In this document: positions 32,766 through 48,944 of the stretch, in pieces
Numbering within the stretch: position 1 is the first letter of the stretch
How the letters are laid out: every line of letters starts with the position of its first letter
NCBI GenBank assembly: GCA_029782145.1
Contig: JAKOVH010000030.1
Span: forward strand, 434,001 to 498,000
DNA length: 64,000 bases
Source: Actinomycetes bacterium
GTDB taxonomy: Bacteria; Actinomycetota; Acidimicrobiia; Acidimicrobiales; Acidimicrobilacustridaceae
Reading direction: 5' to 3'
The notes under the pieces: generated by a model
The model's database searches: none
What the model was told of the DNA's origin: nothing
Seen by the model: only the letters and a program-made list of their open reading frames with translations
Program-made: the position numbers and the translations under genes

Positions 32766-32841
<76 letters not shown>

Positions 32842-32946: not shown

Positions 32947-34110
32947 ATGCCACTTCGCACCGCCCCCGGCATGCGAGAGCGCTCCCCGAACGTGTGGGAG
33001 CTCATCGTGGAGGCCGGCAGAGACCCGCTGACCGGCCGACGTCGCCAGGTGAGCCGCACCTTCCGGGGGAACCTCAGCGAGGCCAAGAAGGCACGGGCCG
33101 CGCTGCTCACCGAGGTCACCAAGGGCCGTCACACCGGCACGAGGGCCACCCTCGACGATCTTTTCTCGGAGTGGATCATCGAGCTGAAGCGGAAGGGCCG
33201 CTCGCCGAACACGATCCGGGGCTACGAGCTCGTGTATCGGCGCAGCATCCAGCCGACGCTCGGCAAGGCGCAGGTCACGAAGGTCACGACCAAGGCGCTC
33301 ACGGACCTCTATGGCGCCCACCAGGATCGAGGGCTGTCGCCTCGGAGCGTGTACCAGATCCACGCCTGTCTCTCTTCGATGTTCACCCAGGCCTGCCGCT
33401 GGGGGTGGCGGGAGTCGAGCCCTGCTCAGTGGGCCGAGCCTCCGGCGATCCCGAACTCGACACCGATCGTGCCGACGCCCGAGGAGGTGCGGAAGCTCAT
33501 CGACGAGGCCGAGCGGGGCAAGCGGCCGGAGATGGCGCGCCTCATCCTGGTCGCAGCGACCACCGGGCTCCGGCGGGCCGAGCTGTGCGGTCTACGGCGA
33601 GATCGGGACGTCGATCTCGAAGGCTGCCTGCTGAGGGTGTCGTCGTCTGTCGTGAAGATCCCCGGCGAGGAGCTGGCCGAGATCCCGACCAAGAACCGAC
33701 GTGAGCGGGTGCTTGCGCTCGATCCGATGACCGCTGGGGTTCTGCGGACCCAGCTCGACGTGGTCGCGTCGCGAGCTGCCACTGCCGGCGTGGGGCTGGT
33801 GGAGGACCCGTACGTCTTCACCGACGCCGTTGATGCGTCGGAGCCGTGGAAGCCGGACAACGTGTCGCAGTACTTCGATCGGATGCGGAAGCGGGTCGAC
33901 CTCGACCACGTGAAGTTCCACCACCTGCGGAAGTTCATGGAGACCTACGGCCAGGAGGCCGGGTACAGCGTGACCCAGGTGGCGATGCGCGCCGGTCACG
34001 ACCCAAGCGTCGCCGCCAAGCACTACAGCGGACGGATTGCCGAGACCGACCGAGCGCTCGCAACCGCCGTCGCCTCGCTCCTGGTGAGAGCTGACGACGA
34101 GCCTGCCTAG
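32947..34110 (+). CDS. Tyrosine recombinase (phage-type integrase)
   Basis: 387 residues from ATG 32947. The N-terminal AP2-like arm-binding region (SPNVWELIVEAGRDPLTGRRRQVSRTFRGN) is followed by a SAM-like core-binding domain (TLDDLFSEWIIELKRKGRSPNTIRGYELVYRRSIQPTLGK). The catalytic domain has Arg in ATTGLRRAELCGL, HxxR in FHHLRKFMETYGQ, a second His in RAGHDPS and the nucleophile Tyr in KHYSG. It would insert and excise the element at the tRNA-Met 45-bp core. It lies next to the intact tRNA. Confidence 0.95.
   Translation: MPLRTAPGMRERSPNVWELIVEAGRDPLTGRRRQVSRTFRGNLSEAKKARAALLTEVTKGRHTGTRATLDDLFSEWIIELKRKGRSPNTIRGYELVYRRSIQPTLGKAQVTKVTTKALTDLYGAHQDRGLSPRSVYQIHACLSSMFTQACRWGWRESSPAQWAEPPAIPNSTPIVPTPEEVRKLIDEAERGKRPEMARLILVAATTGLRRAELCGLRRDRDVDLEGCLLRVSSSVVKIPGEELAEIPTKNRRERVLALDPMTAGVLRTQLDVVASRAATAGVGLVEDPYVFTDAVDASEPWKPDNVSQYFDRMRKRVDLDHVKFHHLRKFMETYGQEAGYSVTQVAMRAGHDPSVAAKHYSGRIAETDRALATAVASLLVRADDEPA

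Positions 34111-39636: not shown

Positions 39637-39644
<8 letters not shown>
39408..39644 (+). CDS. Small two-helix membrane protein with CC-x-x-P motif (MerT/MerF-like)
   Basis: 78 residues from ATG 39408 with GAGGGAGG upstream. A start at ATG 39378 is possible but would lie inside the palindromic operator. Two hydrophobic segments contain FALLALVACCAIPMLMILGATAVLG and WGAAVVLALVAGFGCVAMM, followed by a basic His-rich tail (RRGHRGHHGTGGRHG). The paired Cys before Ala-Ile-Pro recalls mercury transport proteins MerF/MerT and could relay Cu(I) or another soft metal. Its end overlaps the ATPase start, so the two are coupled. Function is inferred. Confidence 0.6.
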
Positions 39645-42075
<2,431 letters not shown>

Positions 42076-43370: not shown

Positions 43371-43491
43371 TCGCCACGAGCCCGTGCCAAACCCGCCGTG
43401 AGGACCCCTCTGCTCTTCTCTCCTGTCTCCCCCCAGCAACCTCAAGAACATCCACGAACTTGCACTTGGAGTGCGGGAGTCGGTCCCGGCC

Positions 43492-46131
43492 ATGTCGTCC
43501 CAGCCCGGACCTGGTGGAGTGCGACACGGCGCACTGTGGCCGGTGCTGAGCATCGGCAAGGTCCGCTTATCGGGTGAGGGCTACTACCTGGCGGCGGTCG
43601 CTGACGGGGTGGACGAGTACTACCGGGGCGTCGGCGAAGCGCCGGGCCGATGGGTCGGCGATGCCGCTGGACCCCTTGGACTGGAGGGCGAGGTAGCGGC
43701 GGAGGAGCTGCATGCAGTGTGGGCCGGCCAGCACCCGGAGACAGGGGAGGGGCTGGGGCGCTTCCGGGGCCGCCAGATCGCCGGATACGACCTGACGTTC
43801 CGGGCCCCGAAGTCCGTGTCCCTGCTCGCCGGCCTCGGCGACACCGACACGGTCCGCGCCGTGACAGCGGCGCACGAAGCGGCGGTGGACGCGGCGTTCG
43901 GCTACATCCAGCGAAGTGCCGCCCGCTCCCGCACCGGAGCGGGCGGGGCGGAGCAGATCGAGGTGAAAGGCCTGGTCGCCGCCGCGTTCCGGCACCGCAC
44001 GAGCCGAGCGGGAGATCCGCATCTCCACACCCATGTCCTTGTCGCCAACATGGCTCAAGGCGCCGATGGGCGGTGGCGCACGTTGGATGGCCGCTGGCTG
44101 TACCTGCACGCCAAGACCGCCGGCTACCTCTACGAAGCCCACCTCCGCCATGAGCTCACCCGCCGCCTCGGCGTGGAGTGGGGCCCGGTCCGCAACGGGA
44201 TCGCGGATGTTGCCGGGATCGACCGTCGTGTGCTCGAGCACTTCTCCGACCGCCGCCGTCAGATCGAAGAACACCTCGACGAGCTCGGCTTCCGCTCCGC
44301 CCGTGCCGCGGAGCTGGCTGCGCTCGACACCCGCACCGCCAAGGACCTGTCGGCCGATGCCGGGTCGATGCGCGAGGCGTGGGAAGCGAAGGCGGCCGAG
44401 GTCGGGTTCAGTCCCGAGCACCTCGGGCTGGTCCTGGATCGGGTCCCGACAATGGTCCCGGAAGAGGTCCCAACCCCAGGTCACAGCGCTCTCGCAGCCG
44501 ACCTGCTGAGCCCCTCGGGGCTGACAGCGAAGGCGTCCACCTTCGATCGTCGGGACCTCCTCCGAGCCGTCGCCGAGCGCATGCCCGCCGGAGCGACCGT
44601 GGCCCAGATCGAAGCCACGGCCGACCAGGTGCTCACCCACCCCGAGGTCGTCACGCTGATCGCCCCATCCGAGACAATCGGAGCGCTGGGGTCGACGGTC
44701 ATCCGCCGCGACGACGGCAAGGTCATCTCCACCGTCAACCTCGACGAAGGCCGCTGGTCCACCATCGAACTCGTCAACCTCGAACGACGCCTCGTCCACC
44801 ACGCCCTCAGCCGCATCGGGGAAGGCGCCGGCATCGCCCCGCCAGAGCTGCTCGACGCCGCCCTACGACGACGACGAAACCTGGCCTACGAGCAGTCCTT
44901 GATGGTCCAGCACCTCACCTCGTCAGGCAACGGCGTCGACGTCGTGTCCGCCGCCGCCGGGACCGGCAAGACCTACACCCTCGAATGCACCCGCGAAGTC
45001 TGGGAAGCCGCCGGCTACCGGGTCATCGGCGCCGCCCTCGCCGGCATCGCCGCCAGAGAGCTCGAGACCAACGCCGGCATCCCCTCATGGACACTCGCCG
45101 CCCTACGCATGGACCTCGACGCCGGCCGGCAACACCTCGACCACCGCACCGTCCTCGTGATCGATGAAGCCGGGATGGCCGGCACCCGCACCCTCGCCCC
45201 ACTCCTCGACCTCGCTGCCCGCAGCGGCGCCAAGGTCGTCCTCGTCGGCGACCCCCGCCAGCTCCCCGAGATCGACGCCGGCGGTGTCCTCAACGGGCTC
45301 GCTCACCGCGTCGGCGCCGTCGAGCTCACCGAGAACCGCCGCCAACGCTCACACTGGGAACGAGACGCCCTCAGAGAGCTGCGCGCTGGCGACCTCGACA
45401 CCGCTCTGGACGCCTACGCCGCCCACGGTCGCCTCGTCACCGCCCCCACCGCGCTCGACGTCCGCCGACAGATGGTCGCCGACTGGTGGACCCACCACAG
45501 CGCCGGTGAGACCACCGCCATGGCCGCCTACCGCCGCAGCGACGTCGACGACCTCAACGGCCGAGCCCGCGCCTACATGCAAGAAGCAGGCCTCCTCACA
45601 GGTCCTGAGCTCGAGATCAACGGACGGCCCTTCCAAGCCGGCGACCACATCGTCTGTCTCCGCAACAACCGACGCCTCGGCATCAACAACGGCACCCGAG
45701 CCACCGCCACCAACGTCGACCCCGACCAGCACACCATCGAGATCCACACCACCCGAGGCTCGGTGCGACTCCCCGCCGATTACATCGACGGCGGCCACCT
45801 CGCTCACGGCTACGCCACCACCATCCACAAGACCCAAGGCGCCACCGTCGACCACGGCCTTCTGCTCGGCACTGACGAGCTCTTCCGCGAACGCGGCTAC
45901 GTCGGCATGAGCCGCGGCCGACTCACCAACCACCTCTACCTCGTCGGCGTCACCGAACCCGACGACACCGCTGGCCACCGACTGCCGGAAGCCGAGGCCA
46001 CACCGGCGGAGACCGTTCGACGAGCGCTGGAGCGACTCGACCAAAGGCATCTCGCCATCGACAGCGGTGACATCGATCGCAAGTCGGTCCGGCAGGATGC
46101 TGATCTCGAGGTGGAGCTCGATCTGTTCTGA
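43492..46131 (+). CDS. MobF-family relaxase with SF1 helicase domain (TrwC/TraI-like)
   Basis: 879 residues if started at ATG 43492; GTG 43471 is also possible. The relaxase domain has N-terminal tyrosines (Y31 Y32, and Y43 Y44), YDLTFRAPKSVSLL, and the three-His metal motif in DPHLHTHVLVAN (residues 177-181). The helicase domain has Walker A AAAGTGKT (487-494), Walker B VIDEAGMAGT, VGDPRQLPEI and the late motif GYATTIHKTQGATVDHGLL. It would nick oriT and unwind DNA for transfer. No coupling protein is encoded here, so it must use another element's secretion system. Confidence 0.93.
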   Translation: MSSQPGPGGVRHGALWPVLSIGKVRLSGEGYYLAAVADGVDEYYRGVGEAPGRWVGDAAGPLGLEGEVAAEELHAVWAGQHPETGEGLGRFRGRQIAGYDLTFRAPKSVSLLAGLGDTDTVRAVTAAHEAAVDAAFGYIQRSAARSRTGAGGAEQIEVKGLVAAAFRHRTSRAGDPHLHTHVLVANMAQGADGRWRTLDGRWLYLHAKTAGYLYEAHLRHELTRRLGVEWGPVRNGIADVAGIDRRVLEHFSDRRRQIEEHLDELGFRSARAAELAALDTRTAKDLSADAGSMREAWEAKAAEVGFSPEHLGLVLDRVPTMVPEEVPTPGHSALAADLLSPSGLTAKASTFDRRDLLRAVAERMPAGATVAQIEATADQVLTHPEVVTLIAPSETIGALGSTVIRRDDGKVISTVNLDEGRWSTIELVNLERRLVHHALSRIGEGAGIAPPELLDAALRRRRNLAYEQSLMVQHLTSSGNGVDVVSAAAGTGKTYTLECTREVWEAAGYRVIGAALAGIAARELETNAGIPSWTLAALRMDLDAGRQHLDHRTVLVIDEAGMAGTRTLAPLLDLAARSGAKVVLVGDPRQLPEIDAGGVLNGLAHRVGAVELTENRRQRSHWERDALRELRAGDLDTALDAYAAHGRLVTAPTALDVRRQMVADWWTHHSAGETTAMAAYRRSDVDDLNGRARAYMQEAGLLTGPELEINGRPFQAGDHIVCLRNNRRLGINNGTRATATNVDPDQHTIEIHTTRGSVRLPADYIDGGHLAHGYATTIHKTQGATVDHGLLLGTDELFRERGYVGMSRGRLTNHLYLVGVTEPDDTAGHRLPEAEATPAETVRRALERLDQRHLAIDSGDIDRKSVRQDADLEVELDLF

Positions 46132-46303
46132 GGGAGCGGTGGGGTCTGCTCTCGAAAGCTTCACGAACTGGGACGTGGGAGAAGGCATCATCGGACCTCA
46201 TGACAACGGAGGCTTTGATCGCGCACGCTGCTGCGATGCGCCCGTGGATCGGGAGTCGTGCTCGACAGCGCCGTTGCTGCCATCAGGTGAGGAGCGCCAG
46301 CCC

Positions 46304-47281
46304 GTGAGTGCCATGCCCATTCCGTACGTCTTTGCGGTGGCCGAGCGTCCCTTCTGCTGTTGGGAACACGATTTGCTTGCGAGGAATCTGGAGTTCCTCC
46401 GAGGCATCGACCCGGATCACTTCGATTCGGTCGCAGGTCTTCTCTTCGCACACCTGGACGGGGATGCCGCGATGTCTGCGTCCATCGCACTTCGATCGCT
46501 CTACCACCAGACGGTCGAGGCGCTGCTGTCCCTGCTAGGTGCTGCGGCGCAGGCACCGGAGGCGGTGCAGGCATGGATCGCGAAATGCAGCACTCACGAC
46601 CTCGAGGAGGTCGTGAGGGCACTCCTTGATGGGAAGCCGCTACTCACCCAATCCGGTCGTCGTGCGGTGGACTTCGACCAACTCTCCCTTGTGGTCCACC
46701 AAGCGGCGTGGCCGGATGACGGTGAGGGCGCTCCCACCGCTGCGCACTTCAGTCGACTCTGGCAGCGCTTCGCTCGCGAGTTTCTCGATGAGACTGCGCG
46801 GGCCGAGTACAACGCGATCAAACACGGAAACCGGGTCATTCCCGGCGGCTTCGACCTCGCCCTCGGAGTCGAAGAGTCCGTAGGCGTGCCGGCACGACCA
46901 GAGTCGATGGTCTCCATGGGTGGAAGTCGGTTCGGGTCGACGTTCTTTCAACCCGAGAAGGTCCGGGACTCCAAGCTGCACCTCCGGACACGACGGGTCT
47001 CTGTCAACTGGTCTCCCAAGAGCATGGGCCAGCGCATCGTGCTCGCCTCGCTTTCAATCTCGAACGTCATCGCTGGGCTCCAGGTCTTTCTCGGTGTGGA
47101 CCCCCGATCGCTGGTATTCCGCCGGCCGGCGTCAGCGTCTGCGTTTGATGAGGCTTGGAGCGAGGCAATCGGACCACGCATGACCGGCATCGATACCGTG
47201 GTTCGAATCGAGGCGGTCGACGAGCTGGGGCGCTCAGATCTGCTCGCTGAGTTGGAGGGGCGCAACAGCGCCGCTGACTGA
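46304..47281 (+). CDS. Hypothetical protein upstream of ApeA-like gene
   Basis: 325 residues from GTG 46304 with GAGGAG 9 nt upstream; ATG 46313 is an alternative. I do not recognise the family. It is mostly helical (AMSASIALRSLYHQTVEALLSLLGAAAQ), with ETARAEYNAIKHGNRVIPGGFDL near residues 170-190. The EYNAIKHG segment resembles the conserved helix of several HEPN-type proteins, but the spacing of Arg and His is not the standard Rx4-6H. Base and codon use is less GC-rich than in neighbours. The ApeA-like gene begins 17 nt later, so the two probably form one cassette. Confidence 0.65.
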   Translation: MSAMPIPYVFAVAERPFCCWEHDLLARNLEFLRGIDPDHFDSVAGLLFAHLDGDAAMSASIALRSLYHQTVEALLSLLGAAAQAPEAVQAWIAKCSTHDLEEVVRALLDGKPLLTQSGRRAVDFDQLSLVVHQAAWPDDGEGAPTAAHFSRLWQRFAREFLDETARAEYNAIKHGNRVIPGGFDLALGVEESVGVPARPESMVSMGGSRFGSTFFQPEKVRDSKLHLRTRRVSVNWSPKSMGQRIVLASLSISNVIAGLQVFLGVDPRSLVFRRPASASAFDEAWSEAIGPRMTGIDTVVRIEAVDELGRSDLLAELEGRNSAAD

Positions 47282-47298
47282 CTCCGTATTGTGACGCT

Positions 47299-48558
47299 GT
47301 GGACGACCCCGGTGAGATCGGTGAGTGGTGGCTTCCGTCGACTCCAGATGCGAAGGCACCGGGCTGGCTGCGGCAGACGCAGGAGCATCGGACTTCCCTA
47401 CTACTCGCCGGGAGCCTGTCGGATCCTTTCACAACGACCGGCACTTACCGCCGCATACACGGTCGGATCGGTAACCAAGCGGTGACTTGCGAGGACTGCT
47501 TTCGCAGCAGGACCGGCGGCAACCTGCTCGGCGGGCTAAATGCAGAGGTGGTCGAGGTCAATCAGGCCTATCGAGGCGTCTGGTTCGATGACGGTGAGGA
47601 ACCTGGCGGAACCGGATTGGCGGCCGACCTGCCGCTTCTGCGCGATTGGGTCGCACCACATTCGCTCACCGTTGATTGGACCGCCGGGGACGGGTCGTCA
47701 TCGGACGCAGTGATCCTGAGGGCGGAGAGGCTCGAGCCGATTGTGCTGAGGTGCTCGTTGGGGGATCTTCGGCTGATCCAAACGCTTCAAACCAGCGGCG
47801 ACGGCGTTTCGTCTCGCACTATCGAGCAATCGCTGATTGCACAGATCGATGTTGAGGAGGTCATTCCCGCCGCCACCTTCCTGGATGAGATAGCGGTACT
47901 CGCTGACGCTGTGTCGCTTGCCTCTGAGAGGTATGTCGCGACGAGATCGGTGCAGCTTCTACATCCCGATGTTGTGCACCGAGAGGGAAGTCCGGTGCGC
48001 CGTCCGATCGAGATGCTGGCGCAATGGACGCCTGGAAGTGACTTACCGCTCAAGCGGGAGCGGGTCTTGGCGGAGTACCAGGCCATCGGCGTGCCGGGTC
48101 TCCAGCGACTGCTTCACGCCGTGTCTGCAATCCGGATTCCGGTTCGCAGGGCCGTGGTCACCCGACACCAGGAGGGTGCGTTCAATTCCGACCGACTGAT
48201 CAATGTCTGTGCTGCGTTAGAGGCTCTCGATCGACTGGCGGCACCAGAACGGCGATCGTTCACACAGCGGATTCGACAATGTGTGGATCTGGCAGGACCA
48301 CCAGCAACGGAGCTCCTCGGGAACCGCGATCGATGGATCGGCTGGTTGAGGCGCCGGCGGGACCACGTTGCTCACCACCTCCTTCCGACTGACAACCGTG
48401 ACGGGCTCGAAGACCTGGCGCTTGCGGAGAGCGCGTATCTGGTCTTTGTGCTCTGCGTCTTCCGGCTAGCCGACCTACCTGACGAAGTGTTCGTTCGAAT
48501 CGGCGAAGGCCCTTGGCTCCAGTGGCTCCGCAACTTGCTCGCTGAGGTGCATCCTTGA
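47299..48558 (+). CDS. ApeA-like HEPN-domain protein, probable anti-phage defence
   Basis: 419 residues from GTG 47299. The N-terminus GEWWLPSTPDAKAPGWLRQTQEHRTSLLLAGSL matches the GxWWLP start of the ApeA N-terminal domain as I remember it. A CxxC (TCEDC, residues 64-67) and a long beta-rich region follow. The C-terminal HEPN domain has RRRRDHVAHHL near residue 355, with R354 and H359 giving the catalytic Rx4H motif with Asp after Arg. HEPN proteins of this type are RNases used in abortive defence. Codon use is AT-shifted relative to the host. It is the last gene before the right repeat. Confidence 0.75.
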   Translation: MDDPGEIGEWWLPSTPDAKAPGWLRQTQEHRTSLLLAGSLSDPFTTTGTYRRIHGRIGNQAVTCEDCFRSRTGGNLLGGLNAEVVEVNQAYRGVWFDDGEEPGGTGLAADLPLLRDWVAPHSLTVDWTAGDGSSSDAVILRAERLEPIVLRCSLGDLRLIQTLQTSGDGVSSRTIEQSLIAQIDVEEVIPAATFLDEIAVLADAVSLASERYVATRSVQLLHPDVVHREGSPVRRPIEMLAQWTPGSDLPLKRERVLAEYQAIGVPGLQRLLHAVSAIRIPVRRAVVTRHQEGAFNSDRLINVCAALEALDRLAAPERRSFTQRIRQCVDLAGPPATELLGNRDRWIGWLRRRRDHVAHHLLPTDNRDGLEDLALAESAYLVFVLCVFRLADLPDEVFVRIGEGPWLQWLRNLLAEVHP

Positions 48559-48701: not shown

Positions 48702-48746
48702 GACTCATAATCCCTTGGTCGTGGGTTCGATCCCCACCCGCCCCAC
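48702..48746 (+). other. Right attachment core (duplicate of tRNA-Met 3' end)
   Basis: 45 bp identical to 32795-32839. The tRNA 5' half is missing, so it is not a tRNA gene. It marks the right boundary of the element. Confidence 0.93.
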
Positions 48747-48748
48747 TC

Positions 48749-48803
48749 GACGGGCGGCTCGTCACGGCTCCCACCGCGCTCGACGTTCGCCACCAGGTCG
48801 TCA
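48749..48803 (+). pseudogene. Relaxase gene fragment outside the right boundary
   Basis: About 55 nt starting 3 nt after the right repeat encode GRLVTAPTALDVR, identical over 13 residues to part of the element's own relaxase (HGRLVTAPTALDVR, coded near 45427-45465). The nucleotide sequence differs at many third positions, so it is not a recent copy of the resident gene. It looks like a scar of a related element that was deleted. Confidence 0.7.
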
Positions 48804-48944
48804 CCGGCCTCACCCTAAAGGCTCCGATCTGGCCGCGGCGGGTAGGTGCCGTCACGGAGACGCTCGCCCGACCCTCGCCGCGGTGGCGGATCCGTCGAGA
48901 ACGAGGACGAGCTCGAAGGGGCTGTCGGACGGTCGGAGGTCGCC

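Follow-up and report, generated by a model that had tools for sequence, protein, structure and literature searches.

Within the window (the whole stretch of 64,000 nucleotides of contig JAKOVH010000030.1 analysed here, numbered from its first letter), we identified an element of 15.9 kb integrated in a tRNA-Met gene, the ends of which are a perfect 45-nt direct repeat. Two adjacent genes, called here gene 1 and gene 2, are placed between its relaxase gene and attR. The features of the locus are the following:

32766-32841, tRNA-Met gene (ARAGORN)
32795-32839, + strand, attL, the 3' part of the tRNA-Met gene, a perfect 45-nt repeat of 48702-48746
32947-34110, + strand, tyrosine integrase of the element (PF00589, E 2.9e-14)
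43471-46131, + strand, TrwC-type relaxase with a RecD-like helicase (PF08751, E 5e-86; PF13604, E 1.5e-55)
46285-46294, + strand, likely ribosome-binding site of gene 1, AGGTGAGGAG, from the sequence, 9 nt before the GTG at 46304
46304-47281, + strand, gene 1, GTG start, orphan protein of 325 aa
46805-46828, + strand, EYNAIKHG motif, residues 168-175 of gene 1 (alignment of the three known members)
47299-48558, + strand, gene 2, GTG start, ApeA-family protein of 419 aa (PF18862, E 1.8e-16; PADLOC PDC-S58, E 2e-13)
47317-47970, + strand, ApeA_NTD1 beta-rich domain of gene 2, residues 7-224, putative sensor (Pfam match; mostly strands in the AlphaFold model)
48220-48222, + strand, E308 of the gene-2 HEPN domain, in E308-x3-R312, an Ex3[KR] motif (invariant in alignments)
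48358-48375, + strand, RDHVAH, R354-H359, the Rx4H HEPN motif of gene 2 (R354 and H359 invariant; aligned by the family profile)
48702-48746, + strand, attR, perfect copy of attL

The element carries copper-resistance genes (CopC/CopD, DUF305, a BlaI-type repressor, a multicopper oxidase and a metal-transport ATPase) and is integrative and probably mobilizable. The relaxase gene immediately precedes the gene 1/gene 2 pair, and 143 nt separate the end of gene 2 from attR, so that the edge position proposed for the pair in an earlier note on this DNA is now bounded by the 45-nt repeat. Related relaxases were found in 36 of 248 genomes of the order. Neither gene 1 nor gene 2 was seen downstream of the relaxase in 13 related elements, some of whose contigs end within 1-4 kb, and the pair is therefore considered as cargo and not as part of the core.

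Directly outside attR, a stretch of 57 nt (48750-48806) is 82% identical to the relaxase gene of the element (45425-45481), and is probably what is left of a second, related element at the same tRNA site. Contigs 22 and 33 of the host genome hold two more related relaxase genes (72% and 41% identity), which points to further such elements or remnants in this genome. The metal-transport P-type ATPase (39637-42075) presents the sequence TCPDALGLATPT, an unusual CPD metal-site motif; CPC is the usual metal-site motif of copper ATPases.

Gene 1 and gene 2 are adjacent on the same strand, the GTG of gene 2 lying 17 nt past the stop of gene 1, and both reading frames are where the earlier note had drawn them, with GEWWLP and RDHVAH in the second protein and EYNAIKHG in the first. 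Both ORFs are taken as real coding frames, since 5-15 stops are found in the alternative frames of each gene. No obvious Shine-Dalgarno sequence was seen before the GTG of gene 2 at 47299. This absence, together with the 17-nt gap, suggests a possible translational coupling of gene 2 to gene 1. The GC content of the two genes is 62-63%, compared to 68-70% in the other genes of the element, and their GC3 is 0.68-0.73 compared to 0.78-0.89, which bears out the compositional distinctness noticed earlier. The low GC and GC3 common to both genes are consistent with a joint acquisition.

The N-terminal part of gene 2, which contains GEWWLP, matched ApeA_NTD1 (PF18862) with 60.9 bits, well over the Pfam cut-off of 25.5, and residues 1-263 matched PDC-S58, a phage defence candidate of PADLOC. 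The C-terminal HEPN domain remained sub-threshold against Pfam HEPN_Apea (PF18739, E 0.27). However, a family HEPN profile made from 7 relatives, with gene 2 left out, gave 12.0 bits to the C-terminus of gene 2 and placed its Rx4H in register; the best of 2000 shuffles reached 7.0 bits. Relatives were collected from plasmids, from eight viral contigs and from eight further genomes within the phylum. In 7- and 8-row alignments of gene 2 with its relatives, E308, R354 and H359 are invariant; G8 and W11 are also kept, and R312 is kept in the viral set. An Ex3[KR] motif and a polar residue after the R belong to the description of the HEPN superfamily (Anantharaman et al. 2013, PMC3710099), with which E308-x3-R312 and D355, after R354, agree. 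The gene-2 HEPN domain is without about 40 residues that its relatives have after the E308 helix and ahead of the N-E-x-x-L-x-x-R-L motif. As it also stays below the Pfam cut-off, this domain may be altered or inactive. Another ApeA_NTD1 protein, encoded at L024:3681-5063 and unrecognised by PADLOC, presents a HEPN-like motif, HTYNDIKHADRG, in place of RNYxxH.

Structure prediction of both proteins, proposed in the earlier note, gave a usable result for gene 2 only. Its AlphaFold model (mean pLDDT 72.7) consists mostly of strands up to about residue 190 and of helices past residue 253, the latter mostly at pLDDT 80-92, giving a beta N-terminus followed by a helical C-terminus, while the model of gene 1, built from 3 rows, reached a pLDDT of 34. 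Foldseek with the gene-2 model returned nothing at E < 0.001 in the PDB or viral libraries. With VIA-align, no HEPN structure was among the matches of this model, the HEPN domain not being queried alone; residues 1-95 came near the PilZ c-di-GMP receptors YcgR, MotI and MrkH (Z 6-7), with Hcp and phage tube proteins scoring similar Z values, which no more than hints at a small beta barrel at the start of the putative sensor.

Taken on its sequence, gene 2 is securely placed as a divergent member of the ApeA family, and the ApeA-like nature with Rx4H motif that the earlier note had attributed to it stands. By analogy with the family, RNase activity and a role in phage defence are likely.

The gene-1 protein, searched against Pfam, NCBIfam, PADLOC, PHROGs and solved structures, gave nothing significant. 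Two relatives were found. The first, 49% identical, lies in an Acidimicrobiia MAG, was the sole match in 84,980 species genomes scanned, and is frameshifted near L001:5183. The second, 33% identical, came from a plasmid search and lies on plasmid pRadio3 of Deinococcus radiophilus, two genes downstream of a MmeI/type IIG restriction-methyltransferase gene. The gene facing it on pRadio3 (L004:7011-8147) shows a weak match to PADLOC PDC-S65 (E 0.0004). In several hundred Actinomycetota genomes, 37 of them of the same family, the copy of the window was the only one found, and no relatives were found in viral contigs or, with the Deinococcus relative as query, in the phage collection.

All three known members of the gene-1 family share E[YH]N[AS]IKHG, a motif in which the earlier note had suspected a second HEPN-like helix. 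No Rx4-6H was found at this motif or conserved near it: R166 to H174 makes an Rx7H in which R166 is not conserved, and three other Rx4-6H strings of the protein all lie away from the motif. Profile comparisons of gene 1 with the ApeA HEPN domain, the L024 protein and gene 2 were null. A second HEPN identity for gene 1 is thus unproven. When the EYN.IKHG pattern was searched at the DNA level in viral contigs, it returned one unrelated, repetitive and probably beta-rich protein (EYNNIKHG), which was rejected as a chance match.

The co-occurrence check in other genomes, which the earlier note had put forward for its two-gene cassette, was then run. Gene 1 was not found in 11 other ApeA-bearing genomes or plasmids by whole-genome or whole-plasmid searches, which as a positive control recovered both known gene-1 relatives, nor was it found on either side of the ApeA gene in eight viral loci. 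Conversely, ApeA_NTD1 was not found in the L001 genome or in pRadio3, which hold the two gene-1 relatives, in a family search whose control found the copy in the genome of the window. Gene 1 therefore accompanies 0 of 19 other ApeA loci and ApeA accompanies 0 of 2 gene-1 relatives, a sample that is small on the gene-1 side, with two relatives of which one is frameshifted. The linkage is unique in this sample, no co-occurrence appearing in anything that could be searched, an outcome that the earlier note had named as refuting its cassette. These searches give no support to a new two-gene ApeA system.

Two stacked cargo genes are the best reading of these data; a dedicated partnership is possible and unsupported. 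The latter explanation would make gene 1 an inhibitor, sensor or second subunit of a two-gene ApeA-type defence or of a toxin-antitoxin-like operon, in line with the 17-nt spacing on one strand, the missing Shine-Dalgarno of gene 2, the matched low GC and the shared place at the edge of the element. However, besides the failure of the genes to co-occur in the 19 loci or in the records of the two relatives, the surroundings of the ApeA relatives on plasmids and of the gene-1 relative in Deinococcus vary and in each case lack the other gene of the pair, and we regard a partnership as unlikely. A more serious, though still doubtful, alternative is that gene 1 acts by itself in defence or as a toxin and contains a degenerate helical domain of HEPN-like type; the site would then hold two independent defence genes. 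The D. radiophilus relative is two genes from a restriction-methyltransferase gene, the conserved EYNAIKHG motif bears a superficial resemblance to HTYNDIKHADRG in the distant L024 ApeA-like protein, and HEPN families without the R are known (PMC3710099). Against it, the motif lacks Rx4-6H, the profile comparisons are null, the gene-1 model stays at pLDDT 34, and EYNNIKHG arises by chance in an unrelated viral protein.

Gene 2 could also be a decaying or inactive ApeA relic, as the residues missing from its HEPN domain and the sub-threshold Pfam score may suggest. This is very unlikely, since the frame is intact, the catalytic R and H, E308 and R312 are all retained and a confident helical domain is predicted. 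A bolder proposal, in which gene 1 founds either a new family of regulators or co-sensors, acting in a two-gene operon together with a trimmed ApeA-type HEPN RNase, or a new defence family that works alone and has an R-less HEPN-like active site, is quite unlikely as well.

We consider it rather probable that the locus is edge cargo in which gene 2 is a self-contained ApeA-family effector and gene 1 an unrelated neighbour that it does not require. In this arrangement, the beta-rich ApeA_NTD1 of gene 2 would detect a product of infection. A 2026 preprint, cited in PMC13405049, reports deoxydinucleotides as the activator in its title. A HEPN dimer (R354/H359 with E308) would then cleave cellular RNA, and the infected cell would stop before phage release, i.e. 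by abortive infection. Gene 2 most likely would work alone, as described for ApeA. Gene 1, with its own putative ribosome-binding site, would have come to sit upstream in the same cargo slot, and the two genes may be co-transcribed.

The result is ordinary but sound: a known family gains a new, divergent member, which lies beside an orphan gene. It extends the ApeA family by a divergent member in which the catalytic residues are kept and the HEPN domain is shortened, and gene 2 could help to define a minimal ApeA effector. Gene 1 belongs to a rare orphan family, one relative of which is near a restriction gene, and is a possible defence gene. If its linkage with gene 2 were functional, this would be, to our knowledge, the first two-gene ApeA.

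Compared with known systems, gene 2 shares with the ApeA/BMEI1217 family (PF18862 and PF18739) the N-terminal GxWWLP beta domain and the C-terminal HEPN domain with Rx4H, Ex3[KR] and a polar residue after the R. It differs from the members compared by an identity of about 12-20%, and from the family by a HEPN domain that is shorter by about 40 residues and stays under the Pfam cut-off, and by the unrelated gene directly upstream. Most other tested ApeA relatives match PDC-S58 over the whole length, whereas gene 2 matches it by its N-terminal 60% only. The PADLOC Cas13-ApeA models, which match 6 of 8 gene-2 relatives tested, gave no match to gene 2 at E up to 10; from the name of the model, we take it to represent the system of Gao et al. 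2020. The family is described in PMC3710099, and, like the ApeA anti-phage system (Gao et al. 2020), gene 2 has the organisation of an ApeA-type HEPN effector encoded by one gene.
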